Assembly: GCA_027475525.1 (NCBI GenBank)
Contig: JAMWFC010000055.1
Location: 1,282,212 to 1,346,211 of the forward strand
Length of the DNA stretch: 64,000 nucleotides
Source of the DNA: Macrolepiota albuminosa
Taxonomy: Eukaryota; Basidiomycota; Agaricomycetes; Agaricales; Agaricaceae
Direction: 5' to 3'
Shown here: positions 10,201 to 61,572 of the stretch, piece by piece
How the letters are laid out: each line of letters starts with the position of its first letter
Numbering within the stretch: position 1 is the first letter of the stretch
Made by a program: the position numbers and the translations under genes
Notes under the pieces: generated by a model
What the model was told of the DNA's origin: nothing
Databases searched by the model: none
The model's input: the letters and a program-made list of their open reading frames with translations, nothing else

Positions 10201-11954
10201 ATTCCAATAATGTTAGTAATTACGTTTCACAGCCACAAAAGCATACCCAAAGATAACATCCTCAACCTGCGTTGTTTTTGGTCTGTCTGCATGGGAGCTC
10301 CAATCATAGAACAAAGGGAAGGAAAGAATGCGCTTTCTCACATCTATTGATTTGTGACACAAAGCTGTTCTCGTGCTTGGGCTTTTGTTCACACCCTTGA
10401 AATAGTAATACTCTGATTGTGCAATGAAGATAGATAGGCCTGTATACAAGAGTCCTATTCCATATGCCTGCACTTCTGAAGCATACACAAGACCTGGACA
10501 TCACCCTGTGGAACGGTATAGAATGAGTATTCGACATTTCTGCCAATGACAACAGTAGATCAAATAACAACACCGTCGTCATTGAGACATCACCGACACA
10601 ATCACCCAACATAAGATGTCTGGTTCCAACAGTCTCTATGTGGGTAACGATATTAGCTTCGACGTCGGCAAGCTCGAATGACAACTCATACCGACTGCTC
10701 TCGTTCAAGTGCTATCGACGGCTACCTGCGGCAAAGAGGATCCATCATCTTCACTGCCTGCGTCTGGATCACCACACCGGTGGTCATCGGTAATACAAAA
10801 TTTGAACTTGGACATGAGCTCTACACCTGTACATGCCGTCCTTCCTGAGCCCGATCCTCTTCCATCCTTGCATGCACTGCACGCACATGCACAGGCAGCC
10901 CCGTTCGGGATAACACCAGTCTCCCCGTCCACCACCGCCACCGAGTCCTCCTTTGCCTCTGCCGATATTCCCGGTGCGTTCTAGAGCTGCATCTGGCTCA
11001 TCAAACCCACGGTGAGTGCGCTTGTGCATGTGCAGTATGTCTGTAACCCGGTGCGTTCTAGAGCTGCATCTGGCTCATCAAACCCACGGTGAGTGCGCTT
11101 GTGCATGTGCAGTATGTCTGTAAGTCTACCAGTGTGATTCGGGCATGTGGAGCCGATGGGGTCCATGATTTGGTGCAGAGGGGAGGGAAGATGTGGAGCA
11201 TGGGGAATGCACGAGCGGGCTGGGCAGGTTCGTCAGGCAGTGAGAGGAAAGACTGCGATCATGCACCGTGAGGAACTATAACAACGGGGTGTATGATAAG
11301 ACAGAGAGGCACGTTGACGGGAGCAGGAGCGGGGAAGCGCAAAAAGATGCAGAAGCAGAAACAAAAAAAACAAGTGCACGACCCAGTCCTCGTCGACATT
11401 CAAGCACGTACAACGGTGCAAATGCTGTGGCAGAATCAAAGCGCCTCTCGCACCCAAGGATGGACCGAATGAGGAAAGCGAGGTGGAGTGGGGGCGCGGT
11501 AGATTCAGAAAGGGGAGGGACACTTTTGATGTGATAGACGAGTAAGTTGAGGCGCGTCCAAGACTCGGACATCTCAGTATATTGTACACGGACTGAGATG
11601 TGTTGAACTCACTATTAGACTTGACTGATTTACTTACCCAACGCTAGTAACTTATTCCCAACAGATACGATGGATTCACCATTGACTCCGAGGCTGGATG
11701 AGTGTTCGGGTAGGGCTGGGGGTCCAAGTCTTTTCTCTTTGATTTCGAGGTCAGTTGAGAATGAAATGGTGAGGTTGGATATAGGGATTAGGGATTTGGG
11801 ATCGCCGTTGATGCGAAATGGAGTACAGTTGACTCTGCTATAATTCATAGGTGTCGGTGGAACTTCTGAAACACAACATCATGTCTCTTTGTCTGGATAG
11901 ACCAAGATTAACTCAGTGTTTGTCTAGAAAGACAAAGAGTACCTCAGTGGTAAT
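10201..11954. other. Region without a confident gene; scattered coding-like stretches
   Basis: Minus-strand 11640-11848 encodes a coding-like stretch (MNYSRVNCTPFRINGDPKSL...) that ends near a good donor, gtaagt, but I could not build a complete model. Other frames at 10700-11590 are low complexity. The 77-bp duplication at 10970 lies here. At 11885-11937 ctctttgtct and agacaaagag form an inverted pair just before the tRNA. Confidence 0.35.
10970..11123. repeat. Exact tandem duplication, period 77 bp
   Basis: 10970-11046 and 11047-11123 are identical over all 77 positions, and the identity ends exactly at both edges. It is one of eight period-77 duplications in the window; see findings for the assembly explanation. 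Confidence 0.97.
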
Positions 11955-12039
11955 GACCCCTTAGCTCAGTGGTAGAGTGTGTGATTCCAGTTTCATTGGA
12001 GCATCCACAAAGTCATCCGTTCAAATCGGGTAGGGGTCA
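11955..12039 (+). tRNA. Putative tRNA-Trp (CCA) with a short intron
   Basis: Acceptor stem GACCCCT / AGGGGTC is perfect, followed by discriminator A. The D arm is GCTC-AGTGGTA-GAGT and the T arm is ATCCG-TTCAAAT-CGGGT with one G-T pair. The anticodon arm TGTGA-TT-CCA-G pairs with CCACA after removing about 13 nt, with one A-C mismatch at the loop end. The intron contains TTGGA, able to pair with the anticodon TCCA, as in intron-bearing nuclear tRNAs. No T4-T5 terminator follows closely, so it may be a pseudogene. Confidence 0.65.
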
Positions 12040-12513
12040 ATGACTATTCTTTGGGCCTCTTGACCGGTAACCGTCATGTGGTGGTACCTACAAACTGAAA
12101 CAAACTATAAACATACAGGCAGTTAACAACTGACCTGTGACTCCCAAACGGGAGTCGCACCGAAAGGTGCCAGATGCCGAAAGGTGTCGTCAATGCCCCC
12201 CTTCTTACTCCCACTCTCCAGAGTCTGACCTGCGGGCGGAACTGGGACGCGGCCACACACAGCCATGTCACAAGGGCAACAAGCCATCGAGATTGTGGGT
12301 CCCCAACCCGACGTCTCCCTAGGTCTCTCTTTATCCAAACAAAAACACAAATCAATTCGGAACGCTTCCCGCTTGCCTTCCATATGTTAATCTCTGGCCT
12401 CACTACGACACAAGTGGAATACTTAATCAATATAGAGGTCGACTCCAATCTGGATATCACCATCCTCTTCAAACCTTTTGCAGACCAGCGACCGTCTTTC
12501 GTAGCAACTATAT
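12040..12513. other. Possible 5' leader of a retroelement
   Basis: Between the tRNA and the zinc-knuckle ORF. It contains short GAAA-capped hairpins, for example caccgaaaggtg near 12159-12170 and gactcccaaacgggagtc near 12139-12156. These resemble structured retroelement leaders, but a complete ribozyme core is not visible. Confidence 0.3.
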
Positions 12514-13050
12514 ATGGTCTCACCCTTCAAAATAAACTCTGAGGATGCCTTGTCAGTCGTAACAGAGCTGATCAAAAGGAAGTTTGCCAAACCTGGGGAT
12601 ATCATTACCTTCATCTCAGAAGCTTCCCAACTGCCTTCTGATCAGGCAGTAAGAGAAATTATGGACAAAGGAGCCCTGCAAATGGTGGGAATTTTTGAGG
12701 CTGGAACACTAGCAGACAACGATCATGTGAAGATGATAAAGCTTATGCGTGCGTGCCACCACCGGACAGCTACCTTTGGTTTTGGGATTCCCCTAAGAGG
12801 GAAGGAAACCCTCCTCTGTATTGATTGCAAGTCCATTGACCACGATACACCAAACTGCCCATTCCCTTATATTCCAGGCTGGCTGGGTTACAATCCTCAA
12901 ACTCAGGCAACTTCGGATACTATGAATGCATATAACAATGAATTTTCCCAGACCCAAGAAGGTTTCTTAACCACCTGTGGCAGAGGGGGAGGGGGAGGAT
13001 GGAGAGGCCACCCCAATTTTAGGCATGGAGGCTGGAGAAATTTTAGGTAG
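12514..13050 (+). CDS. Gag-like (ORF1-type) protein with CCHC zinc knuckle, orphan retroelement ORF
   Basis: A 178-residue open frame from a clear ATG at 12514. Residues 102-115 form an exact C-x2-C-x4-H-x4-C zinc knuckle (Cys102, Cys105, His110, Cys115), typical of retroelement nucleic-acid-binding Gag or LINE ORF1 proteins. The preceding RACHHRTATFGFGIPLRGKE and following NCPFPYIPGWLG are conserved-looking. The C-terminus is Gly/Arg/His-rich, also RNA-binding in style. No reverse transcriptase follows; downstream is AT-rich debris with short broken frames. The element begins shortly after the tRNA, a common retroelement target zone. I favour a non-LTR origin but cannot exclude an LTR gag. 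The intact frame contrasts with the decayed surroundings. Confidence 0.6.
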   Translation: MVSPFKINSEDALSVVTELIKRKFAKPGDIITFISEASQLPSDQAVREIMDKGALQMVGIFEAGTLADNDHVKMIKLMRACHHRTATFGFGIPLRGKETLLCIDCKSIDHDTPNCPFPYIPGWLGYNPQTQATSDTMNAYNNEFSQTQEGFLTTCGRGGGGGWRGHPNFRHGGWRNFR

Positions 13051-13419
13051 AAGACACCCCGATGTATCCCTACCCCCAAGAATAGAACAAAATTTGTCTT
13101 CTCAGCAGCCCTGCTTAAGCAATCATAATCTTGGCTGTACCCCCACAGGCAGTCCAAGAAAGCTCTGAGATGCAATATCCTCCCTGAGGTCTTGGAAAAT
13201 GATCTCACCCTGAGTTGGCTTGGTTGGCAGCTCAGTAAGTCTTAGCAACCATACAATCAGACAGCAACACTTTAATAAGGCAATTCTCAAACAACTTTGG
13301 TTCATGTCTCCAGGTGGGTAGGGGGTCAATAGAGTCAGCCACTGCTCTATACCCAGCATCCTCCACAGGGAGTTTAGAGTAGAGGTGGATCCTCAAATTG
13401 AGGACTGATACATGTTGAC

Positions 13420-13690
13420 ACTGATAGGCTTCTGTTCATACTGAGCACATCACAGGACAATATATGCCCACTGACATCAGTCAATCTGAAGACTCAAGCT
13501 ATTTTTTTGGGCTCAGTTTATCATTGGCAACTTAACAGTTTCAATCTAACAGCCTCAACTACCATTCAACATTATTGACTACAAGGATTCAGGACTTGTG
13601 GGAGAACAGTACTAGCATGACTATGGGATGTGATTATTGACTAAATCCTGATCAATTCCAAGTGGGGATAAACATTAGGCTCTGATGATG
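13420..13690 (+). repeat. Dispersed repeat R2, copy 1
   Basis: Segment from gataggcttctg to cctgatcaattcc. Related copies are at about 53990-54290 (same orientation) and 16440-16800 (inverted), judged by shared blocks such as gcacatcaagggacaat and ctgat(c/t)a(g/a)tt. It lies next to repeat R1 in all three places, so both are probably parts of one element. Confidence 0.55.
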
Positions 13691-13695
13691 CCAAC

Positions 13696-15080: not shown

Positions 15081-15349
15081 CCATGTCAGCAATAGGACTC
15101 TGCTTTAGTTTTTTTTTCTCTCTCTCTCTTTCTAGCACCTTGCAACTATGGCTTGGCTTTCATGCTTAGACCCGCTAAGCAATCTTGTCTTTTTATTCTC
15201 CCATTCTAGGTGCTAACACTTAGTGCCTCTTAGCAACCCTCTCCCACAGCTTTTAGTGCTTTCCCTTAGCAACTCTCTCCTGCACCTCTTAGTGCCTTTC
15301 TTTAGCGACTTTTCTGTGTCCCTTAGTGCTTTTCCTTAGCAACTTTTAG

Positions 15350-15867
15350 TGTCAGGGGACTCCTCATTTCTTCCTTCTTTCACTCCTTATTCCTTTACTC
15401 TCCTTGCATTTATTTCCTTATTTCTTCTATCATTCTCTCATTTTGCTGTTTCTATTCTCTCAATACTATTTGATAATACTATTCTCAGCCCTTGAGGTGC
15501 TCTGGTTCTTTAGCTATCATTCAGACAACTGTGGGCCCTTCAGCACTACTTCCAGACTGCTTATATAAGCCAGAGTATGCCTTTCTGACTTTCAAGTCTG
15601 GAGTTTTCCTGCCTTGTTTGCACAGTTGTTTGGTTAGTTAATTTTTGAGTTTTCAAGGTTTTGTTGTACTGTACAGTTGTTTCTCATGCTTCAGAAGCCC
15701 CAGAAGTGTCCAACCTGGCATAGGAAATCCCTAGACTTGTTTTCTTTGGATCTCTCTCTGCCAGGTGAGTAGTTATTATGATATTGTCAATACATACTCT
15801 AATACACTTTGGATCTCTCTCTGCCAGCTGTGTGACTGAGCCACAGCCTTTAGAGGTCACCCTTACA
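15350..15867 (+). mobile_element. Solo LTR of family L1, copy 1
   Basis: Starts TGTCAGGGGACTCC and ends CACCCTTACA, the usual TG...CA ends, 518 bp. Flanks tttag and cttag are near-identical 5-bp target duplications. A TATA-like cttatataag is inside, and ggatctctctctgccag occurs twice. A full inverted copy is at 60392-60987. No internal retrotransposon genes are next to it. Confidence 0.8.
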
Positions 15868-16789
15868 CTTAGTGCTCTAGCCACGTTTTGGAGCCTTATA
15901 CAAGTGCCTCCAATCATCCACTTTCCTTGCTACCAACCTCTTGTCTACCATGGGTTCTCTGGGACCTGTCCAGGACTCTTTCACACACTTAGCATGCCCA
16001 AAGCTATATTGGCTAAGTAGCTATACTAGTGATAGTGTGCTGCCTAGCCCAATTTGAGCATCATAACCAATAAATTATCAAAAAATATTGTGATATAACC
16101 AAAAAATATATGAATGTTTAAGAAAATCTTGCTCTCTCAGACACTTAAATGCCAAAGGATCCTTTTGAAAATGTCAAAGCAGATATCTCATGCCTCAGGT
16201 CAGGAATAGAGCCATGCAAACAAGATATTCTTGCACAAATTTCAAGGAAGAAGAAGATCTTAGATTCTGATGAGCTCTGGTTGATGAATATTTCAGCAGA
16301 AAATTAGAGTAAATTGTTATCAAATTATGTACATAGTCCATATGTACAACTAAAAATAACAAAAAAATAAGGCTGAAAATGGCTCTTACAATTGACCTCT
16401 CTTATACCAAATAACCCCTAGAAACTGATACTTTTTGGCTTCCACAGAGGGGCCATTGGTTATAAGAAGTTCGACTGTATTTCTAATGATGGTGCCTTGA
16501 CAGATGTCAGTGCCTAAGGCTATCTCCATTTAGAACTGATCAGGGTTTGGTCAAAACCACCTCCTTGTAGTTGTGCTAGTGTTATCTTTGTAAGTCCTGA
16601 GTCTTTTAAGTCAATGTATAGTAAATGATAGTTGAGACTGTTAAGTGGAGCCTGCATTAAGAAGCAATAGCCAAGGATCTTCTAAGCCTAAGAAAGTAGC
16701 TTGAGTCTCCAGGTTTGACAAATGTCAGTCAATCTGTATTGTCCCTTGATGTGCTTAGTCTGAGCAGAAGCATATCAGTGCTGCCATCT

Positions 16790-19060: not shown

Positions 19061-19524
19061 TACCTCATTTCAAATCTAAGATTGATGATCTGACCTGGTC
19101 TAGAACTGCTGAGGTTGGTAGGAAGGTCCCAGCAGTGGAGAGGTCAGGAGGTTCCAGGAGAGGTTTGGAGGTTATGAAATCTCGAACTTCTTGACCAGAT
19201 CACACTGTTGATGAATTAGTTTGTTTTTGTGGAATATTTTGGCTGGACCAGAATTCCATGAATATTTTGGATGACCATTGAATTAGTTTGTTTTTGTGGA
19301 CTATCAAATTTGTTTGTTTTCATGGAAAATCAGTGTGTGATGCCAAGAAAAGAATAACATTTGTAGTTACATGAAACATTATCAAAAAAACTCAGCTATA
19401 ATCAGGAAGCTACAAGAAAACATCAACTTCAACTGAGCATGTTTGGGTCTATATTATTGTCCTCTTATGTATACCAGTCCGACAGACCCCAGAATAGTTC
19501 ACCAGCATATGGCACATGTGAAGA

Positions 19525-19678
19525 ACTTGCATTGTATGCTCCACAGCTCTGGGGTGGTGGTGGTGGGCACATGTTGTGGGAAAGCAAAATGGTACCAGGA
19601 CACTTGCATTGTATGCTCCACAGCTCTGGGGTGGTGGTGGTGGGCACATGTTGTGGGAAAGCAAAATGGTACCAGGAT
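19525..19678. repeat. Tandem duplication, period 77 bp (76/77 identical)
   Basis: 19525-19601 and 19602-19678 match except at the last base. The unit contains a (GGT)n stretch. It is one of eight period-77 duplications. Confidence 0.95.
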
Positions 19679-24469: not shown

Positions 24470-25663
24470 CTAACCACGATCCAGATATGACATGACTGGT
24501 TTCAGAAGTTCCACGTACATTGGAGCAATAAGCTCCAAAGACCTCCAGTATCGTAAAAAAGCGTTAGACGACCATCTTCCTAATGATTTCACGACATCTG
24601 GAGGAATCCCTTGTAGGAGCAACATGGTGGTGCCACCAATGCGGAAACAATGTCCCGTTATCCTGGGGTCATTGTATACACCAAGGATTGAATTGAATTT
24701 CCTTAGCAAACGACGTAATGTCAGACCAACCATGTTGCCTGAAGAGCCTTGAAAAGCTGACACAGTGTCTGTTAAGGAACAATTGTTGATTCGTGCGTGG
24801 TTCTCAAGTGCGAAGATAGGGTCAAGCAGATTTTGGCGAGAAACCAAAATGGTCTCTCCCTTTGTACCACTGCGCTTAGTTCTTGGTAGATGCAGCGTTC
24901 GAGTACCGGTTACACTAGGAGTCCCAAAATGTTTCCACGTAGGGGTAAGAGCAATATCATAGTTTCGTTCTGTCCTTGGGCATATTTCCCCCATCCGGAT
25001 TTGCGCCCAAAAAGCAGTAGTGGCCACCGCCCAGATACATGCCTCCTCCGGATCGTCGAGATTTATATTATTACGAACTCTGGTGAGCATATCGGAAGAT
25101 ACGGGAGGCCGCGTATCCTTAATAGATTCTGGAGGCCGCAACCTCTCTGTTCCTTTCAACGTGTACTTCAGCCTAGACGATCCCAGCCAAGGCAAGTTGT
25201 TCTGTATGTGCCAGGCCTTGACTGCTGAAATTTTTGCTGATGCTGTCCCCCCCGATCTAGATCCTGCCATGGAGGCTGCAAAAGCACAAAGTAAATCTTC
25301 TGAGGTTGAGTGCGAGGTCAATGGATGAACCCCCCGAGCATGACAGAAACCGAAAAATTCTTTGACATAAGCATCATATCTGCCCAAAGTAGAGGACGAC
25401 CACGCATGATTGATGACAAAATTGACCTGCCGTTCATCATCTTCCGCGTTCAGACAGGATTCACCTTGGGGTCTAACTCGAGAAGGTACTGAAGGTCGAG
25501 TGGGATGCCGAACAGATAATGGGATGCGAGGCACAACAGACGATGGAACACCAGGTATAGTGGACGATGAAATGCTAGGCAGAACACGAGCAGGATGATC
25601 TGCGGTATTTGAAAGTCATGTCGATTTGCATCTCGCAAAAACGAAACCTTTAGACTTCGGCAT
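24470..25663 (-). CDS. Element E tyrosine recombinase, two exons: complement(join(24470..25599,25648..25663))
   Basis: Predicted 381-residue tyrosine recombinase that would integrate the circular cDNA of the element. The N-terminal SAM-like domain (about residues 65-165) includes WSSSTLGRYDAYVKEFFGFC. The catalytic domain has the first arginine in AQIRMGEI, the H-x-x-R box in GHCFRIGG, and the tyrosine in SNAFLRYWR, giving the R-H-R-Y set. I propose a 16-nt first exon (ATG at 25663) and a 48-nt intron (gtttcg...ccgcag). It gives MPKSKDHPARV and explains the open but methionine-free upstream frame. No stop interrupts the ORF, unlike gag and RT of the same element. The degenerate homologue of D is at 58343. 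Confidence 0.85.
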
Positions 25664-25918
25664 TGTATGGACGAGAGCGTGTATTCATGAAAGCTACCCC
25701 TAAAAATATCGGCAAAAGGAGCGATGTCAGCCTCTCTTTTCCTGTATGCCATTCGAGCCTGCTAAGACGTTTAATACTAATATACAAATAACTGCAGCAA
25801 AAACCGTGCGATTTGAACAAATATGTAAGGGGAGTCATGAGTATGATTGAACAAGCTCTAAGTGTCTTTAAAACGATTCACAAAACAGAATATTTCTGAT
25901 AAGAGGTTGTAAAGGCAT

Positions 25919-37745: not shown

Positions 37746-37899
37746 GGATGTATGTCCACCTACGTCCTCACGAGTCAAGTTGGAAGACTTGAAAGACAGC
37801 ATCCAAGAGGCGGAAGCCTCAGGGATGTATGTCCACCTACGTCCTCACGAGTCAAGTTGAAAGACTTGAAAGACAGCATCCGAGAGGCGGAAGCCTCAG
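37746..37899. repeat. Tandem duplication, period 77 bp (75/77), in pol of A
   Basis: Copies 37746-37822 and 37823-37899 with two substitutions. It shifts frame between EDSVDVCPPTSSRVKL and the RT part. B has the segment once (49828-50118 region). Confidence 0.95.
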
Positions 37900-39279: not shown

Positions 39280-39433
39280 AGACTCCGGTGATTCGACCAA
39301 TCGACCCTAGATGGGACGAGCCAATATGGCTCATTTGCGACGCGTCCAAGACAGGCAGACTCCGGTGATTCGACCAATCGACCCTAGATGGGACGAGCCA
39401 ATATGGCTCATTTGCGACGCGTCCAAGACAGGC
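39280..39433. repeat. Exact tandem duplication, period 77 bp, in RNase H of A
   Basis: 39280-39356 equals 39357-39433. TPVIRPIDPRWDEPIWLIC appears twice in two frames; B has it once. Confidence 0.97.
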
Positions 39434-40523: not shown

Positions 40524-40677
40524 AGTCCAGAGGGTTCAATTACCTCTGGGTGGTCATATGCTGCATGATGAGCATGGTGCACCTCATACCGGTGCGAACT
40601 AGTCCAGAGGGTTCAATTACCTCTGGGTGGTCATATGCTGCATGATGAGCATGGTGCACCTCATACCGGTGCGAACT
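40524..40677. repeat. Exact tandem duplication, period 77 bp, in integrase of A
   Basis: 40524-40600 equals 40601-40677, shifting frame inside the integrase core. B has this part once. Confidence 0.97.
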
Positions 40678-41862
40678 ACGCTGACGGCTAAAGAGCTGTC
40701 ATGGATCTACCTGAGGGAGATCATCAGGCTGCATGGGCTGCCTAGCACCATTGTGAGTGACCGTGACTCAAAGTTCACGTCTCAATGGTGGAGAGAACTC
40801 CACAAACTGCTAGGAGCACGACTCCTTATGTCGACGTCCTTCCATCCTCAAACGGATGGGCAGACAGAGCAGGCTAACTGCAGTATAGGTCAGATTCTGA
40901 GGGCAGTTGTTCACCCTGACCAACGGGACTGGGTGGACTGGTGTCCACTCACTGAGTTCGCGATTAACGCGAGTATCTCAGATACCACAGGGTATGCGCC
41001 CTTTGAACTCAACGGAGGGTACTTGCCCTCCATGCTGCACGAAGTTCGTGCTGATACGGTGGCTCACCGTGGAGTTGTCGAGTTCGCCAGGCAGGCCCTG
41101 GAGAACATTGCGGCGGCACATGACGCCATCATAGAGATGCAAGTCTTCCAGGCAAAAAATGCCAATCACCATAGGCGAGCAGACCCGCCAATAGCAGTAG
41201 GAGCATTGGTCTACCTATCAACGCGTAATCTGAAGCTCTCAAAGGGATGGGCGAGTAAACTCTGCCCGAAATGGGTAGGCCCATACCGCGTCCTAGACGC
41301 AGAGCCAAGTACCTCCAACTACGTGCTGGAGCTGCCTCTGGCATTACAGGAACAACGCATCGTTCCTAAGTTTCATGTGTCGCTGTTGCGACCATACAGC
41401 GCGTCTGATGATGCGCTGTTCCCTAACAGGGCAACCCCGGGCCCCTATGATTTTGGGGCTCGAGACAATGATGAATGGTTTGTTGAGTGCATAATTGGGC
41501 ACCGGTGGACTGAGCATAACACGCTCGAGTTTGAAGTATGTTGGTCCCTGGGGGACACAACATGAGAGCCACACTCCCATTGCTCCAAGTCAGCGGCACT
41601 TGACTGTTATTTGGAGTTGAAGGGCGTTAAGCGCCCACATTAATTAAGTAAGCATGCCGGCGCTTAATTTGATCGGCAGTGCTGATCGCGGCTTGGCTGA
41701 GTTGGTCAGCAGCTGTGGCTGAAACACGTCTTAAAAGGCGAAATTTCTTTTTCACCTTTTTCCCTCAACCATGGACAACATGCCCGTGGACCCATCTGAG
41801 CAGCAGCAGCAGCACCTTGAGTTTGCGCCATCGGTCTTACCGTTGGCTGGAGGGGGGGGCAG

Positions 41863-44852
41863 ATGGCTCCCCCGCTGACCCAAAATGCGCCCCAGTGGGG
41901 ACAATCGCAAGCAGCTGTGGGCTTCCCACAGCAGCAGCCGGTGATCAGTGGCTATCTGCCACTTCAACCCATGCAGGGCAACTTCGTGCCCCAGAACGCA
42001 CCTGTGGGCGGCTATCAGCCCCAACAACCAGTATTGGGCACTTATGCGCCACATCACACCAAGGGCCAATCCCAACAACAGGCCTATGGGGGGCTAGTCA
42101 ACCCCCAAGAAGCGCCAGGATGGGGCCAGTTTGCCCCCGCTATGGCGAGAGGGGCTATAGGCACACATCCTTTGCCCCAGTTTACGGCCCCGGCGCACTA
42201 CCCTGGGATGGGTGGTGTGCCCGTAATGATGCCGTACCCCCCGGCTTGGATGGGGGCTTGGGGCGCAATGCCCCAGTACAGCGACTCGCATGAGTCGCAA
42301 GCCAAGGGAGGCCGGTCGATTTCCCTGTCGACCACAGCACCAATTGACAATCTAGAGGGACGCAAAGCATCCCTCGTGCAGGCCACCGCGGCCATTGAGA
42401 GTACAGAAACTCTCAATACAGAACGGAGCATCAGTTCATCGGCTGATGCGCCGATGGAGAGCTTGGCCAAGCTCTCCTTGCTACAGCGGCTGGAAATGCC
42501 GCACCAATCCGAGCCCAGCTCGGAAGAAGAGTCGCGTCCTTGACGCGACAAAGGAAAAGCACGGGCTGTCGAGCCCACTCACAACCAGGACTTAGTCCTG
42601 GCTACCCTTCTCCAACGTCTGGAAGATAACGGGTACAATGTACCTGCAGAGTCAGCATTCCTCCACAATGCGGAGGCAGTCGTCCTCATCTGCTGGATGA
42701 TGGACGACATGGATCATATGCGTGCGCAGCGCAAAACTGATCTCCTTGCCCTTTCGGCCGCTTATAAGCGGCAGACTACACCCCCGAGTCGGGACACTGA
42801 CTCCAGCAAAAGGGCGTGTCGGCAAGGAGTGGAGGACACGCCCTCCCGCTCGACTAAGTCGAGCGTTGCTGCCCCCGGCCGGGAGGCCGGTCTAGGACGG
42901 GACATCCTACCCTATGAAGATGCCCCTGCTCCAGCCGCCCCCTGGCTTATCCAGCACCTCGCCAGCGGCACGTCTGAGGTCACGTCTTTGCAACCAGTAT
43001 CCATGGTGTCCACCACGTACTCTGGGGAGCAGAGTTCCAGGGGCGTGAGCACACGCCCCACTGAGGCCAAGGCCTCACAACCCCGAAAGGATCGTCGGGG
43101 TAAGCAACCGGAAGTGCGCGCCTACGTCAACGTGCACTTCCCCGAGGATGCCCCGAAAGGGGCCCCAGGGGCTAACATCCCCTTTTTACCCGCTATACTG
43201 GTAGAGGGCCTACCAGCCCGACTCCCGCAGTGTGTGTGGGCTATGGACCCACGATCTGAGAAGTCAGAGCCGGAGAGGCTGCTCTCCCCACCCTCCGACG
43301 ACGAGTGGTACGAGGAGCCTGAAGAGACTCGTATGGAATCCCCTGTGCCGCACAAGACGGCGGCACAACGTATGGCACGCAAACAGCGCAACAGCAATCA
43401 ACGGGCCAAGATGGAATGTCAGACGCAGAATAGCACCAAGCAAGGAGCTGCCCTCCTCGAGGACCAAACTGGGCACATCCCTGATGCACTCGGTGTTGTG
43501 ATCTATCGAGATCACACTATTGAGCGCCAAAACTCAAGGACCAAACTGGGCACATCCCTGATGCACTCGGTGTTGTGATCTATCGAGATCACACTATTGA
43601 GCGCCAAAACTCATTCTTTGGCGCGGGGTTAGCTCCCCAATTCTATTGGTTGCCAATGACCAATACCATCTTCGTTGGGCAAGAAGCCCACGCAGCCAGG
43701 TCCTTCGAGGATGATAAAAAGGGCAATGCCGTGGCGACGCCCCACAACAGTAAGGTGTACTAAGTAGCACCTCGCAGGTTTCCCCGCAGTCCTCAAGAAG
43801 TCCGCAGACTTCATGCACTGGTTAACAACCAGTTTACGCCGCTTTGTCAGCGTCAGTTGGGCTACCTCTTGCTCAACAAATTCAAGCGGATGGCGCTCAA
43901 CTGCCACCCTACGGCCCAAGACAGAGCTATGTCTCATCTACTCGACGAGGTCGAGTATAGGACTATCGCGGTACCCTTCGCAAGTCCAGAGGAGCGGGAG
44001 AACGTCCCACAAATGATTGTGCTGTTGCAGCTCTATCGCTGCAAAGAGGGAGGGAAAATTGCCTTTGTCGGCCTTACCCCCCCTGATCCAAAGCAACAAT
44101 TTGCTTTGGACTACCTGGGCTCATACACCCTCCTCTATGGACGTCCTGGAACGTCCAACGTATGGACCGGTCTGGCCATAGACCAAGCCATGCGCATTCA
44201 TTGGTGCAGCCTCTTTGGGTTTGCGCTTGTACGCGCCCTCAGTGCCAGCCGCCCCTCCAAGGCCACGGTACACAAGTACCTGGCCTACGTCTTTGCCAGG
44301 CCAGGCCTCTACAAAGAGGCCGTGGCTGAGTACGAGGTGGCCACGGGGCAAGTCTTCGAGCCCCTCCACGCCAACGACCCTACCTTTGAGGTTTGGGCTG
44401 TGGACATCTCAGAAGCGTCAGCTTCCGTGTTCACCACTTCGGACGCGTTACACGTCCTTCTTCACAATCAAATTCCGGTCAGCTGGGCTGACCATGCGTA
44501 CACTTATGGGGTCACCTACTTGGCCCATCTATTCTTCAGCGACAGCTGGCTCTACAACGAGGCGGCTGCTATCGATGACAAGAGGCTACAATGCCTCAAC
44601 CATTACGGTACACCCCAGTCCATCGCTCAGTGGGATGGGTGGTGCGAGGCCACCATTGGCGATTGCCAACGCCTGATGCTCCAGCAGCAGGACAGTTGTC
44701 GTGCATACGACAATGCGCTCGCCAAGGGGATGTACCTCTCCATCGGGCAAGACATTCATGCCTGCGACATCTGGACGTGCCAGTACCCGTCCGACACCGG
44801 GGATCTGCCTGATCCCCAACCACCTGTCCCGGGGTCGACCATCGATTCATAG
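41863..44852 (+). pseudogene. Element A ORF3, unrecognised protein between pol and 3' LTR
   Basis: A frame of about 970 codons beginning MAPPLTQNAPQWGQSQ, or from ATG 41771 if a G8 run at 41852-41859 is passed with a frame change. The N-terminal 230 residues are Pro/Gln/Gly-rich. The middle is charged (MMDDMDHMRAQRKTDLLALS). The C-terminal about 330 residues look folded (DYLGSYTLLYGRPGTSNVW; SLFGFALVRAL; PVSWADHAYTYGVTYLAHLF). No signal peptide, transmembrane helix or cysteine pattern of an envelope protein is visible. It has stops at 42541 (TGA) and 43761 (TAA), and the 43460 duplication shifts frame. The last codons come from the join to the LTR tail. B has the same ORF, so it is a family trait. 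Function unknown. Confidence 0.7.
43460..43613. repeat. Exact tandem duplication, period 77 bp, in ORF3 of A
   Basis: 43460-43536 equals 43537-43613. The homologous stretch of B at about 33680-33770 has the sequence once. Confidence 0.97.
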
Positions 44853-44923: not shown

Positions 44924-44928
44924 TATGC
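44924..44928. repeat. Target-site duplication of element A, right (tatgc)
   Basis: Matches 33871-33875. The next bases resume ORF3 of B (gcggcacagggattcc). Confidence 0.92.
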
Positions 44929-46459
44929 GGCACAGGGATTCCATCCGAGCCTCTTCAGGCTCCTCATACTATTTGTCATTGGAGGGCAGTAATGGCAGCC
45001 TCTCTGGCACAGATGTGTCCGAACGTGGGTCCATTGCCTACACACACCACAGGAGTCGGGCTGGCGGGCCCTCTACCAGTATTGCAGGTAAGAAGAGGAT
45101 GTTAGCCCCTGGGGCCCCTTTCAGGGCATCCTTGGGGAAATGCACGTTGACGTATGTGTGCCCTTCCAGTTGCTTACTCCGACGATCCTTTTGGAGTTGC
45201 AAGGCCTTAGCCTCAGTGGGGCGTGTGCTGCCGCCCTGGAAACTCTGCTCCCCAGAGTGTGTGGTGATTACCACGGATAATGGTCACGAAGATGCGACCT
45301 CAGATGTGCCACTAGCAAGGCGCTGGATGAGCTGGGGGGCAGCTGGAGCAGGGGCATTTTCATAGGGAAGGATGTCCTGCCCTAGACCAGCCTCCCGGCT
45401 GAAGACGACAATGCTTGACTGAGTTGAGCAGGAGGGCACGTCCTCCACTCCTTGCTGATGCACCCTTTTGCTGGAGTCGGTGTCCCGACTCAGGGGTGTA
45501 GTCTGCCGCTTACGAGTGGCCGATAGGGCAAGAAGATCAGTTTTACACTGAGCATGCATATGATCCATGTCGTCCATCATCCGGCTGATGAGGACGACTG
45601 CTTCTGCATCACAGAGGAATGATGATTCTGCAGGTACGTCATACCCATTGTCCCCCAAGCATTGGAGGAGGGTAGCCAGAACTAAGTCCTGGTTGAGACT
45701 GGGCTCGACAGCCTGTGCTTTTCCTTTGTCATGTCGGGGACACAACTCTTCTTCTGAGCTGGGCTTGGGTTGGTGTGGCATCTCCAGCCGCTGTAGCACG
45801 GAGAGCCTGGCCAGGCTCTCTGTCAGTGCATCAGCTGGAGACTTGCCACTTTGTTCTGGATTGAGAGTTTCTGTGCTCTCAACAGCCATGGAGGCCTGCG
45901 CAAGGGATGCTTGGCATCCCTCTAAATTGTCGACTGATACTGTGGTTGACAGAAAAGCCGACTTGCCTCCTTTGGCTAGTGCCTCATACGAGGTGTTGTA
46001 CTGGGGCATTGTGCCCCAAGCCTCCATCCAAGCCAGGGGGTACGGCATCATTACGGGCACGCCACCCATGCCTGGGTAGTGTGCTGGGGTGGTAAACTAG
46101 GAAAAAGGATGTGTCCCCAGTGGCCCTGTTGCCAGTACAGGGGCAAGCTGCCTCTATCCTGATGTCGCTTGGGGGCTGACAAGCCCCCCATACTGGTGTT
46201 GCTGGGATTGGCCCTCAGCATGATGTGGCGCATAAGCGCCTGCTACTGGTTGTTAGGGCTGATAGCTGCCCACAGGTGCATTTTGAGGCATAACATTGCC
46301 CTGCATGATTTGGTGTGGCAGATAGCCACTGATCACCAGCTGCTGCAGTGATTAGCCTGCCACTGGTTGTTGCTGCTGCTGTGGGAAGCCCACAGCCTGT
46401 TGTGATTGTCCCCACTGGGGCGCATTTTGGGTCAGTGGGGGAGCCATCTGCCCCCCCCT
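44929..46459 (-). pseudogene. Element B ORF3, N-terminal and middle part
   Basis: Same protein as ORF3 of A: Pro/Gln-rich start (QMAPPLTQNAPQW at about 46450), GGVPVMMPYPLAWM, then LQRLEMPHQPKPSSEE and MMDDMDHMHAQCKTDL. A few stops lie in the first third. It has an arginine codon where A has the TGA at 42541, and lacks a 77-bp duplication. The same G8 run lies between the frame of the upstream ATG (about 46541) and this frame. Confidence 0.65.
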
Positions 46460-46649
46460 CCAGCCAACGGTAAGACTGACGGTGCAAGCTCAAACTGTTG
46501 CTGCTGCTGCTCACTCTGGTCCACAGGCATGTTGTCCATGGTTGAGGGAAGAAAGGGAAAAAAGAAATTTCAAATTTCTAGATGTGTCTCAGCCACAGTT
46601 GCTGACCAACTCAGCCAAGCCACAATTGGCACTGCCAATCAATTTAAGC

Positions 46650-49600
46650 ACTGGTGTGCTTACCTAACTGATGTGAGCACTTAACGCCCTTCAACTCCAA
46701 ATAACGGTCAAGTGCCGCCAACTTGGAGCAATGGGAATATGGCTCCCATGTTGTGTCCCTGAGAGACCACCGTACCTCAAACTCGAGCATATTCTGCTCA
46801 GTCCACTGGTGCCCTATAATGCACTCGACGAACCACTTGTCATCATCTCATGCTCCAAAGTCATAGGCGCCTGGGGTTGCCCTGTTAGGGAATAGCGCAT
46901 TGTCGGACGTGCTGTATGGTCGCAACAGCGACACATGGAACTTTGGAATGATGCATCATTCCTGTAATGCCTGAGGCAGCTCCAACACATAGTTGGAAGT
47001 ACTTGGCTCCACGTCTAGCACGCAGTATGGGCCTACCCATTTTGGGCAGAGTTTGCTAGCCTGTCCCTTTGGAAGCTTCAGGTTATGCATTGACAGATAG
47101 ACCAACGCTCCTACTGATATTGGTGGGTCTGTTCACCTACGGTGATTGGCGTTTTTTGTCTGAAAGACTCTCATCTTGATGATGGTGTCATGTGCCGCTG
47201 CAATATTCTCCAGGGCCTGCTTAGCAAACTCAACAACTCCTCGGTGGGCCACCACATCAGCACAAATTTCATGCAGCATGGAGGGCAAGTACCCTCTATT
47301 GAGCTCAAAGGGTGCATACCCTGTCATCTCCAAGATACTCGCGTTAATCACAAACTTAGTAAGTGGACACCAGTCCACCTAGTCTCACTGATCAGGGCAA
47401 ACAACTGCCCTCAAGATCTGGCTGATACTGCAGTTGGCCCGCTCAGTTTGCCCATCTGTCTGAGGATGGATGGACGTCGACATGAAGAGTCAAGCTCCTA
47501 GCAGTTTGTGGAGTTTCCTCCACCATTGAGATGTGAACTTTGAGTCATGGTCACTTACAATAGTACTAGGCAGCCCATGCAGCCTAACAATCTCCCTGAG
47601 GTAGATCCATGACAGCTCCTTAGCCATCAGTGTAGTTTGCACTGGTATCAGGTGCACCATGCTCATCATGCAGCAGATTACCACCCAGAGGTAATCAAAC
47701 CCTCTAGACTTGGGAAAGGGATCTACAAAGTCCATTCCAATGGGGTCCCAAGGTTTTACTGGCATGGGTAGCTGGTGTAGCTTCCTGGCAGGGGATTCAG
47801 GGGGCAACTTTGCCCTCTGACACGCTGCACATAAGGTGCAGAACTTAGTCACTTCCTGGGCCATACGTGGCCACCAATACCACCTACAGATGTATCCCAA
47901 CGTTTATGCAGCACCAAAGTGCCCCACCAGTGCATGGGCCTGGTCTAGTACTCACGTAACAATGGTTCGCATATGGGGAAGGCAGACCACTGCCACCCCT
48001 TGATGGTTTTCCGTCGTGATCAGTCCCCCAGGCTCCTGCCTGAACCAAGGATGGTCATCGGAATTGGCAATTATCTCAGCAAAGAGAGAATCATCACCAT
48101 ATTCCCGCACCACTTCTATTTGGAAGTCGTCGCTGCCCAGGCTAGAGGGCTGGAATGAAGGCAATTCACCTTTGAGCATCTCAGCCAGAGTAATGGGGCT
48201 GTCGGGGCACTCGCAGTCCCCAGGTGACGCTAGATTCATGACTTCATGCTCCTTGAGCAGCTGGGTGGCTACGTCCTGCTCTTCACACGCAGCATAGTTT
48301 TGCTGGGCAGTCGTGAACTTCTTTGACATGAACCCTGCTGGGCAGCAAGTCTGCCAGCTACTCCCCTGACCATACATGGCTCTGACGCCTGTCTTTGACA
48401 CGTTGCAAATGAGCCATATCGGTTTGTCCCATCTAGGGTCAATTGGTCGAATTACCGGAGTCTTCGTACAAATCCGCTTGACCATCTCGAAGCACCACTG
48501 GTGCAGTGGCCTCCAATTGAACAGTGACCTGTTCTGCGTCATGGCCATGAGTGGCCCAGCATAGGCAGTGACATCGGGCAAGAAGCTCGATATGTAGTTG
48601 ACAAGGCCAATGAATCGTTGGATGTCATTGTAGTTTTGTGGTGTGTGCCACTCCTAAATACGATTAAGCTTGTCCTGATTGGGGTGTATACCCCGCTCAT
48701 CAATGACATGCCCTAGGCAGTCTATACTTTGAGCATAAAGCTCACACTTCTTCTACTTCAAGTACAGCTTGTACTTGTGCAGTTGTTTGAACATGACTCT
48801 GAGGTGCTGCTCATGCTCCTCCATGGAATCTGAATAGATTAATATATTATCTAAGTAGACATGCATAAAACGTCCTATCACATCTCGAAAAATAGAGGTC
48901 ATGAGCCTCTGAAAGGTTGCAGGGGCATTACAGTCCCCAATTTGCATTATGTTGCTGGTGAACATGCCCATGATCAATGCGAATACAGTCTTGGGTACGT
49001 CTTTGGTGCGGATGCGCACCTGCTCATAGGCGTCAGTAAGATCAATTTTTGAGCAATACTTCACCCAAGCCACGTCTTCCCAAATCACCTCCTGATCTGG
49101 TAAAGGCGTTACATCCTTTATGGTATTGTCATTGTGCTGACATACATCAAGAGCTGTTTGAAGGGTTCCGTCCTTCTTTGGGATGCACAGTAATGGTGCA
49201 GCCTGAGCAGTGGTGCATGGTGACCACCACTGAGCATTCAAATAGCGATTAGTTTTATTGCGTAATTGCTCCTGGAGTGCGCATGAGCAGTGCAGCAAGT
49301 GATGCTTATATTGCTTGCTCTTGTCTATAAGATTAATCTCATGGTTCACTTCCTGCCAAGGCAGGAGCTCCTCTTTGGTCCATTGACCATATTAGCAAAT
49401 TCCTCTTGCCATTGCTGATGCAACCAAGGTATCTCTTCCTCCCAAAGGCTTGTCGCCTTCTGTTTCCCCTTTGGACGCACCTGGGGGGAAGTACCTCCAC
49501 CGTTTCTGATGGTGGCCATGGCTGCGGTGCATATTGCTTGCAAATTGTGAGCACCCAATTAACACTGTCATTGAGTATATGCAGTCTCAGCAGTGGATCC

Positions 49601-50118
49601 ACTACCGCTGTCTTACGAGCCATGAGGCTTGTTCCTTCGCGTACAAGTGAATATGCTACAGATACTTTGTCCGAAGCTGGCTGGCAATATGCTAGTGTGA
49701 CAGTTGTCCATCGCTGGCATGTGTTTCACGCAGATGTGGCTGCCACCAGTTTGTTCCATTCCTGTGGCATTCGAGGATCATATGCCCAGTCGTACTCAGG
49801 AAGGGGAGCTGGTCGCTCCCATAAGGACTATGTGGCCTTACAGTATGAGGCTTTCGCCTCTTGATTGCTGTCCCTCAAGTCATCTAACTTGACTTGGGAG
49901 GATGTAGGCAGACATACATCTACTGAGTCCTCAGGCTTCTTTGCCTTTTGCTGCCGTCTATCTGGAGGCTTTGCACCTCGAACATCACAAGCAAGTATTT
50001 GCTTGTCTCTTGTCTTGGAGGCTTGATATTTCTCCTTGCTCATCATCACCACATTGTGGTCTGAGCTTAGCCCAGGCATAGCCTGTACTTCCTCATCCAC
50101 CTCCTCCACCGTCGGCAT
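46650..50118 (-). pseudogene. Element B pol: RT, RNase H, integrase, chromodomain
   Basis: Starts MPTVEEVDEEVQAMPG after the gag stop. It has RT (SKIDLTDAYEQVRI; YLDNILIYSD, where the second catalytic Asp is Asn), RNase H (SKTGVRAMYGQG), integrase (CTLCAACQRAK; GMDFVDPFPKS; IVSDHDSKF) and a chromodomain that keeps the tryptophan codon lost in A at 41563. Several stops and small deletions are present. Compared with A, many CG sites are TG or CA. It has no 77-bp duplications, so it serves as the internal control for those in A. Confidence 0.8.
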
Positions 50119-53067
50119 GTTGCACTGACTGAGTCATGGAGAGTCCTTGCACTTCTCCATAGTGCAGTGACATTGCAGGCAATTATCAGTGTCGTCTGCG
50201 GTAGCCCATTCGGCTGAGATTACTTTCCCATTTACTAGCACTTGACAGTGCTCAAAGTCTAGCATGACTTTGTTATGCCGCATGAAGGGCATTCCCAGTA
50301 TCATATCATAGCGATCAAAGTTCACTACATCCATATACTCCCGGCTATGTGAGCCCAGTGTCTGGACAGTTACATTCGTCCCATACTGCACCATAGCACG
50401 GCTTCCTATGGTGCCCAGCTGCAATACCAATGGCGTATCCAACTCCTGCATGGATATTCCATACATGTGGGCAAACTGGGGCGTTATACCCGATGTAGTA
50501 CTCCTGGAGTCCCATAAGGTCCATGTCCTGTGGCCATTTACATCCACATACGAGACCAGGCACTCCTTGTCTGCCCGTTTCAGTGTAGGGCACTGCAAAG
50601 TGCCCTCTGCTCAATGAAGGGTCACCTTCTTCATCTGAACCACATTATTTTTTTTGGGATTATTTGAGGACGGCCAATCTGTCATTGTTGCTAGGCACTC
50701 GGAGTTGCTGTTGTAACTGTAGTACTCGTTGTTGTAGACATTGTCATATACGTCAACTGTGATGTACTCCTCCCCCTCCACAACTACACTCTTGGGCTCG
50801 GCGCCCAATGTCTCCTCTGGGGGCTCTTGGTCGTTTGTAGGGTGCTCTGCCTCAAATTCGGCGGACACGTCTCCATCACTCCCACTCATGGCTGCGGTAT
50901 GTGCAGCTCAGAGGTGGGCCTGGAATGTATACCCCTTCCTCAGGGCTCCTGGCTTTGCGGGGCAATTGGTAGCATAGTGGCCTGGCTGGCCACATACAAA
51001 GCAAGTCCCCGTCTGACCTGGTGGGTTGGCCAGCTTGAACTCTGGCCTTGGTTTAGGGCATTCTCTGTCCAGCACCCACTCCAGGCATGGGTGGCTTCGC
51101 CCTTGGTTTGCAGCAGGGGTTCTGCATACCACAAACCGCATGTTGTGGTCACGATCCACATTGGCTTTCTTGGCCAAGAAGGTCCCTACATGCTGATCCT
51201 GTGAGGGTGCCCCAGCAGGCGGTAGTTGCCTGCTTCCCTCTTTGTGGCCACTCCAATGCTCGTAGTGGTTAGCAGTCTTAAGGAACTGCTCATATCTGAT
51301 GGCATATGCCACAAACTCCTCCACATCGTTGACCTCTGGGAACAGTCCATCCTCACATATCAGATAGCAGTGCATGTCCGCTGGAATACCATCCAAGAAT
51401 GTTTTGAGCATTGTATACCTGTCCGGGTATACTGCCATATTCTGGGCATGGTCGTTAAGGGTATCATAGAACCCTTGTACTCCCAACTTCTCAGTGTACC
51501 TGGCAGACTGGAAGTCCTGCCTCGCATCTTGTAGCGTCGAGGGGTGTACAAATCAATTGTACAGTCCTGTGAGGACTCCTTTGAATGTCCACTTATACTG
51601 GACCCGGTTGATGTGCAATACTGCACGTCAAAACCACCCCATGGCCTCTCCAGCCAAGAATTCAGGTAGAATGAAGATTCGTTCTCATTCCATACAGTCA
51701 CCACCATACAAGCACATTGCGAGGTGGGTGCATACATCCATCACCCAGTCCTTCAAGTCACTGAACTTGGACGCACTTGTGTAGGCGTGAATGTGCCTAC
51801 TGTCCGCTTTACGCAGCTTCACCCCATTGGATAACCGCAAGGTTACCCCTAGGGCATCATTGACTACTCAATGCAGGCAATCATGCATGGCCTCACAATG
51901 CATCTGAATGGCCTCCTGCTGGTCCAGAGATCTAGTCGCTAAGTCTGCAGCTTAGGGAAGTGACTTCCCTTGTCTACCCTGCAGCAGGCATCCCAAGCCC
52001 CCTCGACTGTGGGCATAATTACCCTCATCTTGGAGAGTCGGCCTAGGGCAATCATCCTGGCCGCTAACAGGGGCATCATGTCTGGTGGCACCATCTCGAT
52101 TGAGGAAGTCTCCTCGATCATGATTGTTGCACCGTCCGGGTTCTGGAGAAGCTTGATTCTCCTGGCCCTGCGTGATGAATTGACAATGCATCTTGTCAAT
52201 GGGCTTTGTGCCCTTGAATATGATGCCCTGATCATCAATAAGGGACTGTCCCTTAGCTCTGAGGTTGCCATTGTGCATACGCTGATACGCAACTCTGTTG
52301 CTCAACGTTTCTGCCATTGGCACGTGTGGCATCACAGATGCCTTGCTCTCCACCTTGAACACGGTACTACCGTGTCCATTCAGGCCTGACATTTCTGTCC
52401 TAGGGTCTCGGTTACGCAAATGTGGGGGCTCTTCATGCCACCCTTGTCCTGCTGGAGTATAAAAGGTACTCACCGGCTTTACCTTGGGCACTTCCTGTGC
52501 CCGTGCTAGTGCTTCTACTAGCTCGACTTCAACATCTTGATTATGACATGCCGAGCATTCCTCAGACATGTGGCTCCAGGGGGTTGACACCCCGGATTGC
52601 CTTGCAGCCTTCCACTGCAAATACATCTGCAGTTCCATCATGAGCACTCTCACCATCAAATCAGTATATTTAGTACTGAATACATTGGGCACTTTATGCC
52701 CTTGTCGCCTAAGTGCTACTATATGCGCTGAAGCATAGCGCTCAATTCGCGCTTGGGTGATGTATTTCATCACCTCTGGATGTAAATCCCAGAACACCCA
52801 CAAGCGCATGGTGTACGTGATTTTCAACCGCTGCTCCTCTGCCCCGGTGTCGTCGTCGCTTGACGACTCAATCACCTCCTCTGGACGCTCTGCAACCTCT
52901 GGGACTTCCTGCACTGCTGGTGTGCGTGGAAATCAGTTTTCCATGTGGGCTTCTTCAGGACTTGCAGCCTCCTCCGGTACCTTGTCTATGTGGGCTTCTG
53001 CTATCCTGGAGGGCATTGAGCCCGCTGTGGCCCACCTGGTCCTACTACTCTGGCTTGGAGGGATAGC

Positions 53068-55059
53068 TGTCACGACCCCTCCCCTCTGGGCCCACCCCGG
53101 AACACCCCCGGAACACCATCCGGGACCCTCCCTCTGACCTCGCAGGACACGCCCCGCCATCATGACCACCAACACCGCCATCACGCGCATCAAGGACTGC
53201 CATCAGCCACCACCAGCCCCGATCAACGATCGGATCACGCGACTCACTTCTGGCTATCACGCATCACGCATCACAGCTCCCTCCATGCCAATTGATTGCG
53301 CACCCCACACGTGCAATCCCGGTATACAGTCCCTGCCGCTACTCAATGACCCCCGGAGCCCATCCCAGACACCCCAGAACTCCGAGACCTGGTCCCGTAG
53401 TACTTATAGCATAGTTCCCTGTTGTATTCGCTAGTCTTGATATTACACTGCTTACACTGTTTCACTTGGTTACTTGAATTGTTGTGTGCCCTCTATTTGA
53501 CTGGTACGCATCAACTGGCACGCTTGACTGGCACGCTTGGATAATCGCGTGCACTAAGACTGGTACGCACTTCGCGACTTTAACTTACTAACTTGGTCTT
53601 GTTTTAGAACCTCCGGTTCATGACTCGACCCCCACCCGAACTCCCCAGTTACCTATCACCCAAAACCCCTGGACTAAGTCCCCTCTCCCGGGATTCCCCT
53701 GTCCACGTCTTGAACCCCGGAGTCCTAGCCCCAGAGTTCCAGACACCTGAGTATCCGTGGGTCAAGTCCGCATTGTAAGGGCGATCGCTTTCCCGGAAAG
53801 CCCCCGACTCAGCGGAACCTGACAATAGCTCCCCCAGTCCATACTGACAACTCGGTATCTCCTGAGATGCCATAGGCACCTGTTGACTGTCGGCCTTCCT
53901 CAGGGAGCCCTTTTGAGGCTAGCAAGCTAGACCGTCGCAGTCCTTCTAGCAGCTGCATAACTGGGGGAGTTAATCTCTCTGGCATCTTGTCCTAGAGCTG
54001 TTGATAGGCTTCTACTTGGACTGAGTGCATCAAGGGACATTATAGGCCAACCAACACTTGACGTACTGAAGACTCTAGAAACCAGTTGGGAATATAGAGC
54101 AGCCCTAGCTCTGGCAACCTACTACAGGACTTAGCCATTTACCCTAACCACTAGCTACCAGGCCTTCAGCACACTCCATTCACTTATCTCAAGGACAAAG
54201 GAGGCTCAGAACAAATAGTACTAACATGACGGCGGGGAAGGACTCTAACTAAACCCTGATTATTTCCAGAAGGAGCCAGCAGCAGGCACTGCCATTTGAC
54301 GAGGCACTTCAATCAGAAGTCTAAAAGGATCAATGATGGCGGCACTGGATATACTTAAATCCGATATCTGGACCTGTCAGGAACTGATACAATGAGTAGC
54401 GCTGACACTAGCGCTCACAGCGTCTGTCGAGGATTTTCCAACTATACCCCAGAACAACCTGGCCAATCGGAGTTATAGTAAAAGTGAGCAGACTCATACA
54501 ATTCCAAGTCAATATAGAGTCGCCACTGGTTGCCATGGGTCATAACGCTGTTGGTCACCGTCATCCATGTGCAAAAGGTTGCCGTTGACAGGTTGCCGTT
54601 AGAGGAAACCACGAGGAGAGGCGCTAGGAGGTAGCACCGCAGATGGACTTGTATCTTGGCAAACATGGTAGTGCATAGTATATAAAATAGCTACTTGACA
54701 TGTATATAAAAACGAATCGGAACCTCTTGAGCACACAGTTCCACTTAGCGTTCAAATTGCGCTAGCTTTCTTTAACTTCGCCACTAAGTCAGGCGCTGGC
54801 CTCATCTATCTTGTCTTCATTGTTTACGGTGCCACCTATGGGCACAATACGCTGCGCTACTTGTCTTTTCTTCAATATCTTTGTTTAAACTACGATGCTT
54901 ACCGTCTGCCAGATAGCCCCCAAAGCGCTATAATTTAGCACATCATTTTATCACCTCTGCTTGAGCACACTGGGACCCTGTCAGGACTCCTCACAACTAT
55001 GCATGCCAAGCGCTGGAGACAGCGTTGTACTGCATATATGTCCAGTGCACCCAACCACA
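53068..55059. mobile_element. Insert H in gag of B, about 2 kb, TG...CA ends
   Basis: Starts TGTCACGACCCCTCCCC and ends ACCCAACCACA, the LTR-style TG/CA ends. 53068-53990 is GC-rich and CpG-rich; 53990-55059 comprises R2 and R1 repeat sequence. No coding capacity is seen. Flanks atagc and gaccg do not match, and about 160 bp of gag of B are absent, so insertion with deletion, or an assembly join, is possible. It is probably a non-autonomous LTR element or large solo LTR. Confidence 0.5.
54270..55059 (-). repeat. Dispersed repeat R1, copy 3 (within H)
   Basis: Reverse complement aligns with 13696-14450 by blocks ttggccaggttgttctgg, ggagtcctgacagg and the initial TGTGGTTGG. CpG sites are largely intact. 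Confidence 0.65.
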
Positions 55060-60391: not shown

Positions 60392-60987
60392 TGTAAGGAT
60401 GACTTCTAGAGGCTGTGGCTCAGTCACACAGCTGGCAGAGGGAGATCCAAAGTGTATTAGAGTATATACTGACAATATCATAATAACTACTTACCTAGCA
60501 GAGGGAGATCCAAGGAGAACAAATCTAGGGATTCCCTATGCCAGGTTGGATGCTTCTGGGGCTTCTGAAGTGTGGAAAACAACTGTACAGTACAACAAAA
60601 CCTTAAAAACTCGAAAATTGACTAACCAAACAACTGTGCAAACAAGGCAGGAAAACTCCGGACTTTAGAAGTCAGAAAGGCAAACTCTGGCTTATATAAG
60701 CAGTCTGGAAGCAGTGCTGAAGGGCCCACACTTGTCTGAATGACAGCTAAAGAACCAGAGCACCTGACTTATATAAGCAGTCTGGAAGCAGTGCTGAAGG
60801 GCCCACACTTGTCTGAATGACAGCTAAAGAACCAGAGCACCTCAAAAGTTGAGAATAGTACTAACAGATAATGTTGAGAAAATAGAAATAGCAAAATTAG
60901 AGAATGATAGAAGAAATAAGAAAATGAATGAAAGGAGAGTGAAGGAATAAGGAGTGAAAGAAGGAAGAAATGAGGAGTCTCCTGACA
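60392..60987 (-). mobile_element. Solo LTR of family L1, copy 2, with perfect target duplication
   Basis: Reverse complement of the LTR at 15350-15867, with TG and CA at the ends and caagt on both sides. It is 596 bp because of a 77-bp internal tandem duplication (60689-60842). No internal genes remain; it arose by LTR-LTR recombination or an assembly collapse. Confidence 0.88.
60689..60842. repeat. Tandem duplication, period 77 bp (76/77), inside the solo LTR
   Basis: 60689-60765 and 60766-60842 differ at one base. The L1 copy at 15350 has the unit once. Confidence 0.95.
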
Positions 60988-61005
60988 CAAGTCTGGTGCA
61001 ACCAG

Positions 61006-61085
61006 TCCCAGTAGTTCAGTGGAATATTTGTGTATTGATATTCAATATTATGTATAGCAGTAGGTTCAACTTCCCCTACTCCACC
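61006..61085 (+). repeat. tRNA-like repeat unit 1
   Basis: agtagttcagtggaatatt (A-box-like, as in Asp/Glu-type tRNA) then about 35 nt, then ggttcaacttcc (B-box-like) flanked by complementary cagta/tact. Degenerate; not a functional tRNA. Confidence 0.5.
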
Positions 61086-61159
61086 TTAATGGCGTCTAAT
61101 GGTGTGTTTTTATACAGGTCCATTTTTGCTCTACATTACACCATACTGACTTATAGTAA

Positions 61160-61240
61160 GTGATTGTAGTGCAATAGAATATTGGTAAATTGATATTTCA
61201 TATTGTGTACAAGAGGCAGGTTTGACTCTCATTAGTGTAC
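61160..61240 (+). repeat. tRNA-like repeat unit 2
   Basis: gtagtgcaatagaatattgg then ggtttgactctc. The preceding block ttacaccatactgacttatagtaag is also found before unit 3. Confidence 0.5.
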
Positions 61241-61418
61241 ATTAAAGCAGCAGGCCACTGACATCTGTCCACTAGCATCATTAATTTGATCTGTTTAAAA
61301 CTCCAGAGATTTCTGCAAAGAGATAGAATAGATAAATCTGTGCATGTATTCATTCCAATGCATATGACCAGTTAATGACACACTGTGGCTGGACTACCTT
61401 TGTGCTGAGCTTTATGAC

Positions 61419-61572
61419 ATAGATAGCTAGCCCTGATGTATCATCACTTGTCACGTGCACTGCAATAAACACACATGCAAGTTCCTCTATTCTATATAGA
61501 TAGCTAGCCCTGATGTATCATCACTTGTCACGTGCACTGCAATAAACACACATGCAAGTTCCTCTATTCTAT
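61419..61572. repeat. Exact tandem duplication, period 77 bp
   Basis: 61419-61495 equals 61496-61572 in non-coding sequence between tRNA-like units. Confidence 0.97.

Follow-up and report, generated by a model that had tools for sequence, protein, structure and literature searches.

Do tandem duplications of one fixed length belong to the genome of the basidiomycete Macrolepiota albuminosa or to its assembly? The question arises from a stretch of 64,000 nucleotides, here called the window, in assembly GCA_027475525.1 (100.1 Mb in 129 contigs). It lies on contig JAMWFC010000055.1, abbreviated C90, at C90:1282212-1346211. A preliminary description of the window had listed eight tandem duplications with a period of 77 bp and ascribed them, as probable artefacts, to an assembly program working with words of that length (k-mers, k = 77). 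We found every one of the eight at the positions it gave, and our analysis indicates that 77-base duplications of this kind are very probably artefacts, absent from the DNA of the organism. Some of them lie in element A (34450-43352), which together with element B (44926-53997) forms a pair of inverted copies from one Ty3-like retrotransposon family, as judged by self-comparison and Pfam. A and B are ~80-91% identical, depending on the segment, in a large, palindrome-like arrangement. The eight duplications, in window coordinates, are:

10970..11123, no strand: tandem duplication, 2 x 77 bp, identical; intergenic or old repeat
19525..19678, no strand: tandem duplication, 2 x 77 bp, one mismatch at base 77 (the last); old repeat
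37746..37899, no strand: tandem duplication, 2 x 77 bp, mismatches at bases 38 and 60; element A
39280..39433, no strand: tandem duplication, 2 x 77 bp, identical; element A, pol region
40524..40677, no strand: tandem duplication, 2 x 77 bp, match run of 78; element A, integrase region
43460..43613, no strand: tandem duplication, 2 x 77 bp, identical; element A, end of an open reading frame (ORF)
60689..60842, no strand: tandem duplication, 2 x 77 bp, one mismatch at base 2; long terminal repeat (LTR)
61419..61572, no strand: tandem duplication, 2 x 77 bp, identical; dispersed repeat

Five pairs had been called identical over exactly 77 bp. The copies at 10970, 39280, 40524, 43460 and 61419 do match at 77/77 positions, but at 40524 the match run extends to 78. 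The remaining pairs carry one or two mismatches, as reported before: one at 19525, two at 37746 and one at 60689. All four of these differences are transitions. Because exact match runs at every other period from 10 to 599 were at most 22 bases long within the window, the pairs are far beyond chance.

Self-comparison of the window located single counterparts of several units. The element A segments at 37746, 39280 and 40524 occur once each in the inverted element B, as had been claimed for all four A segments, but the one at 43460 is not in B. Its single-copy counterpart is an inverted copy at ~32.5-33.9 kb. The 60689 unit is present once in a related LTR at 15349-15870, in agreement with the earlier account, and the identical pair at 10970 recurs 236,323 bp downstream of the window locus.

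Duplication lengths and the match between copies

We counted tandem duplications (period 20-1499, identity at least 95%) in a 264-kb sample made up of the window plus twenty stretches of 10 kb (15 from C90, five from contigs C73, C104 and C95). The period was exactly 77 in 42 of 45 duplications; the other three had periods of 21, 30 and 48. Excluding L023, a stretch that shows the window's 10970 locus again, left 41 of 44 at period 77. The spike was present in the samples from all four contigs, and period-77 pairs were seen on ten contigs altogether (C90, C73, C95, C104, C110, C107, C105, C88, C69 and C6), some of them known from loci fetched for other purposes. The nineteen stretches other than L023 held 35 pairs in 190 kb, including one cut by the end of its stretch and one with a match run of only 72. 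Their density varied from no pair in five stretches to nine in one, and the five stretches outside C90 yielded only 4 pairs in 50 kb. One duplication length recurs across unrelated contexts and contigs, as expected of an artefact of fixed word length. The preliminary description had held that a genome-wide spread of lengths with no spike at 77 would speak against such an artefact; the 264-kb sample showed the spike and no spread of this kind.

Two of the fetched loci, L012 and L025, each contain a block of 100 N. This is the usual size of a scaffold gap, and from these blocks the assembly was probably scaffolded.

In the window and all fetched sequence, the two copies were identical in 53 of 60 complete pairs and differed by 1-4 bases in the other seven (window 19525, 37746 and 60689; L018:3374; L034:2905; L053:22 and L053:2672), so that one copy in each of these seven must have been changed, either at a later step or by real variation. 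The pair on C88 is complete, with one mismatch. The longest match run among 58 measured pairs was 86, and therefore none of them contains a third copy. Match runs of at least 77 were exactly 77 long in 39 of 53 cases, compared with 55% expected if runs were free to extend by chance on both sides (one-sided p 0.004). This excess leaves no sign of short edge homology of the sort left by slippage or microhomology repair. Slippage or microhomology-mediated tandem duplication would be expected to give a range of lengths, with short homology at the unit edges; neither was seen, in the 264-kb sample and the 58 measured pairs, respectively. The 39/53 figure agrees with chance extension on one side only, an agreement noticed after the fact.

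A much larger repeat also involves the window. Window pieces 200-600, 10900-11200, 19425-19601, 39180-39356 and 61319-61495 each match again on C90, 236,323 bp downstream. Comparison of 10 kb (L023) and of three more loci showed 0 differences. The repeated part starts between ~1,245,400 and 1,282,411, extends to at least 1,439,400 and by the tested points spans at least ~157 kb, while C90 1,208,000-1,208,400 is single-copy. Wherever compared, the downstream repeat contains the same 77-base pairs and was therefore probably copied after the pairs arose. The shared pairs suggest a second assembly error, in which a contig was entered twice or an overlap stayed unmerged; alternatively, the repeat may stem from a recent real duplication.

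Apart from this repeat, the duplicated state appeared to be private. Of 712 candidate places for the 39280 unit, 40 were scored, and a second same-strand copy was found only in the two C90 places, one in the window and one in its exact repeat downstream. The same was true of the 61419 unit among 40 scored of 199 candidates, and of the 19525 unit among 13 scored. The 19525 unit was single in all six fetched relatives, two of which match the first copy at 77/77 positions.

Sequence at the edges of the repeated unit

An exact search of the repeated 77-mers in other fetched sequence gave matches for only 6 of 54, so near matches were needed to compare the edges. At 15 duplications in fetched relatives of element A, the base immediately right of the unit differed from the majority of sister copies in nine, compared with 5 of 364 control 77-mers (Fisher p 2e-11). 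The controls were 400 random 77-mers, less 36 that did not have enough comparators. The unit thus ends at a divergence between copies in 9/15 cases in the family, as an untrimmed overlap between the branches of an assembly graph would. The 61419 family, with fetched relatives ~81-93% identical, was uninformative here.

Small gaps at the edges were more one-sided. The element A family has dozens of relatives, with 97-98% identity over the piece searched. We aligned the window copy of element A and ten of its relatives in pairs; together they amount to 34,947 bases and carry 21 duplications, three of which belong to the window copy. Against several sisters, the alignments had 14 gaps of 1-2 bases, and all 14 were deletions. 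Eleven of them lay no more than 4 bases from the right end of the second copy, a position expected by chance for 0.5% of gaps, and none of the 14 came as close as that to where a first copy starts. At least seven fell in short runs of one base. Where two copies join, the gap L030:144 seems to be a product of the alignment; without it, the count is 11/13. In L036 and L053 the element has minus-strand orientation, and the affected side was again the right; it therefore follows the contig and not the element. L051 and L052, the two relatives without a duplication, showed no gaps of 1-2 bases.

Origin of the duplications

The length spike, the privacy of the pairs and the lack of a length spread strongly support an artefact of computation with k fixed at 77, as the preliminary description had proposed. 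Its more specific claim, that contig ends sharing a k-mer had been joined end to end, fits the right-sided deletion gaps less well. We consider the best explanation to be, with fair probability, a k-mer step, in correction or gap-joining, that failed and wrote its left anchor a second time, and we prefer a failed correction step to untrimmed contig joins. A step of this type would use 77-base words and run from left to right along each contig, while a long-read draft was being corrected with k-mers, polished or gap-joined. It would arrive at the final 77-mer in agreement with accurate reads, immediately ahead of a discrepancy that is typically a missing base. Failing to bridge the discrepancy, it would emit this 77-mer again and continue with the uncorrected draft. 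We favour a left-to-right k = 77 step because the deletions are one-sided; from their kind, they would be errors of the long-read draft, and we likewise infer the direction and the failure to bridge. Among the papers that literature searches listed, there was no direct precedent and no program that duplicates 77-mers in this way. A MaSuRCA-type origin was considered, but nothing here speaks for it. PMC9516828 attributes false duplications to the build-up of errors in reads, in long reads particularly. The likeness to these homotype false duplications, as described there, is the origin in read errors; the difference is that theirs are under-collapsed sequence, whereas here a single word of fixed length, 77 bases, stands in tandem.

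Several observations weigh against a failed correction step. The gap result is from one repeat family, in which 11 of 21 duplications have a right-end deletion and 10 do not. In L035, two gaps are 15 and 19 bases away on the right of the unit, L054 has an 11-base deletion far from its duplication, and the window's own element A duplications lack the edge signature. The adjacent-base comparison was also mixed. On the left, the adjacent base differed at 3 of 15 duplications compared with 6 of 364 controls (p 0.004), two of the three differing on the right as well. L031:665 differs on the left only, and neither L053:22 nor L054:2381 differs from the majority at an adjacent base. Counting the window's 39280 duplication makes the right-hand score 9/16: with ten comparators it has no adjacent difference, the nearest being 6 bases to the right in nine of the ten. 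Besides the 15, eight duplications, 39280 among them, had one or more near comparators and could be tested (19525, 39280, 40524 and 60689 in the window; L007, L013, L017 and L028). None of the eight had a right-adjacent majority difference (at 19525, two of six comparators differed), and three (40524, L007 and L017, with one comparator each) differed on the left. All 23 testable duplications together gave nine differences on the right and six on the left, so the adjacent-base test by itself is not clearly one-sided.

This balance of adjacent bases would suit a different origin, in which contigs of a de Bruijn graph (k = 77) with ends sharing one 77-mer were joined end to end and the overlap was left untrimmed. 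Such joins would also account for a length of exactly 77 in nearly every case and for repeats that often stop where copies diverge, like branches in a graph. In SPAdes, the overlap at contig ends has length k. According to PMC5481147, contigs of SPAdes assemblies are left overlapping at their ends, and Unicycler takes the overlap out; the likeness to our case is that neighbours share end sequence that is written twice if untrimmed, whereas one-sided deletions of 1-2 bases, seen here in one family, are unexpected from graph overlap. As the graph is strand-symmetric, it predicts equal edges, whereas 11 of 14 gaps were on the right and none on the left. Passing a variant should moreover produce a second duplication ~154-155 bases further on, but the 34 measured spacings start at 234. 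Lastly, a pattern of deletions only, by the usual error types, resembles long-read error and is unlike short-read contigs. Overall, we regard untrimmed contig joins as a possible but rather unlikely origin. Another software error with a fixed 77-base step, such as in read trimming or gap filling, and unrelated to correction would give the fixed length, but it does not predict a right end at a one-base deletion, and we consider it improbable.

If the organism itself made the tandem duplications, by some process of fixed 77-base length, this would explain why the pairs are present twice on C90, 236,323 bp apart, like an inherited feature. However, the downstream repeat is base-identical where compared and so looks copied after processing. 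Real duplications are also at odds with the absence of a length spread, with the lack of extra edge homology (39/53 runs of exactly 77, against 55% by chance), with the identity of 53 of 60 pairs, even inside decayed repeats, and with the restriction of the 39280, 61419 and 19525 duplications to one copy and its repeat. We give this origin next to no credence. A real process that duplicates the 77 bases directly upstream of small deletions throughout the genome, for example by a template or footprint of fixed 77-base size, appears just as extremely unlikely.

Consequences and the elements that carry the duplications

The 77-base pairs should not be interpreted as real biology; their biological interest is low, and they matter to users of this assembly. 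Extrapolated to 100 Mb, and if the sample is typical, there would be several thousand to nearly twenty thousand pairs, a rough figure, with 14 of 19 intervals from one contig and 4 pairs in 50 kb in the other five. As 77 is 2 modulo 3, each 77-base insertion shifts the reading frame. Any gene or transposon hit by one would appear disrupted, and errors could enter gene predictions, pseudogene counts and the ages assigned to repeats. In other assemblies, this class of error would be detected by scanning the lengths of tandem duplications for a spike and adding the edge test.

The frame jump that the preliminary description had noted in element A could be seen at 40524 from the lengths of the open frames around the two copies. 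Upstream of the repeat, one frame is open for 200 codons and closes 39 codons further on; read from the second copy, in the same register, the frame is open for 320 codons. In Pfam, the left piece matched an integrase zinc-binding domain and the right piece a Tf2-1 SH3 domain, together with an integrase core match below the cut-off. Conserved single-copy genes cut by the repeats were not found among ten open pieces adjoining repeats that were scanned with Pfam; three of the ten had hits, all to retrotransposon domains.

Elsewhere in the window, a homology search with the ORF at 43857-44852 had no match at E 1e-3; from its transposons and a bZIP gene, the sequence would be judged fungal. Three minus-strand ORFs scanned at 24470-28715 had no Pfam match at E 1e-3. 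By eye, the minus-strand ORFs of this region resemble those of a tyrosine-recombinase (DIRS-like) retroelement and may belong to one.

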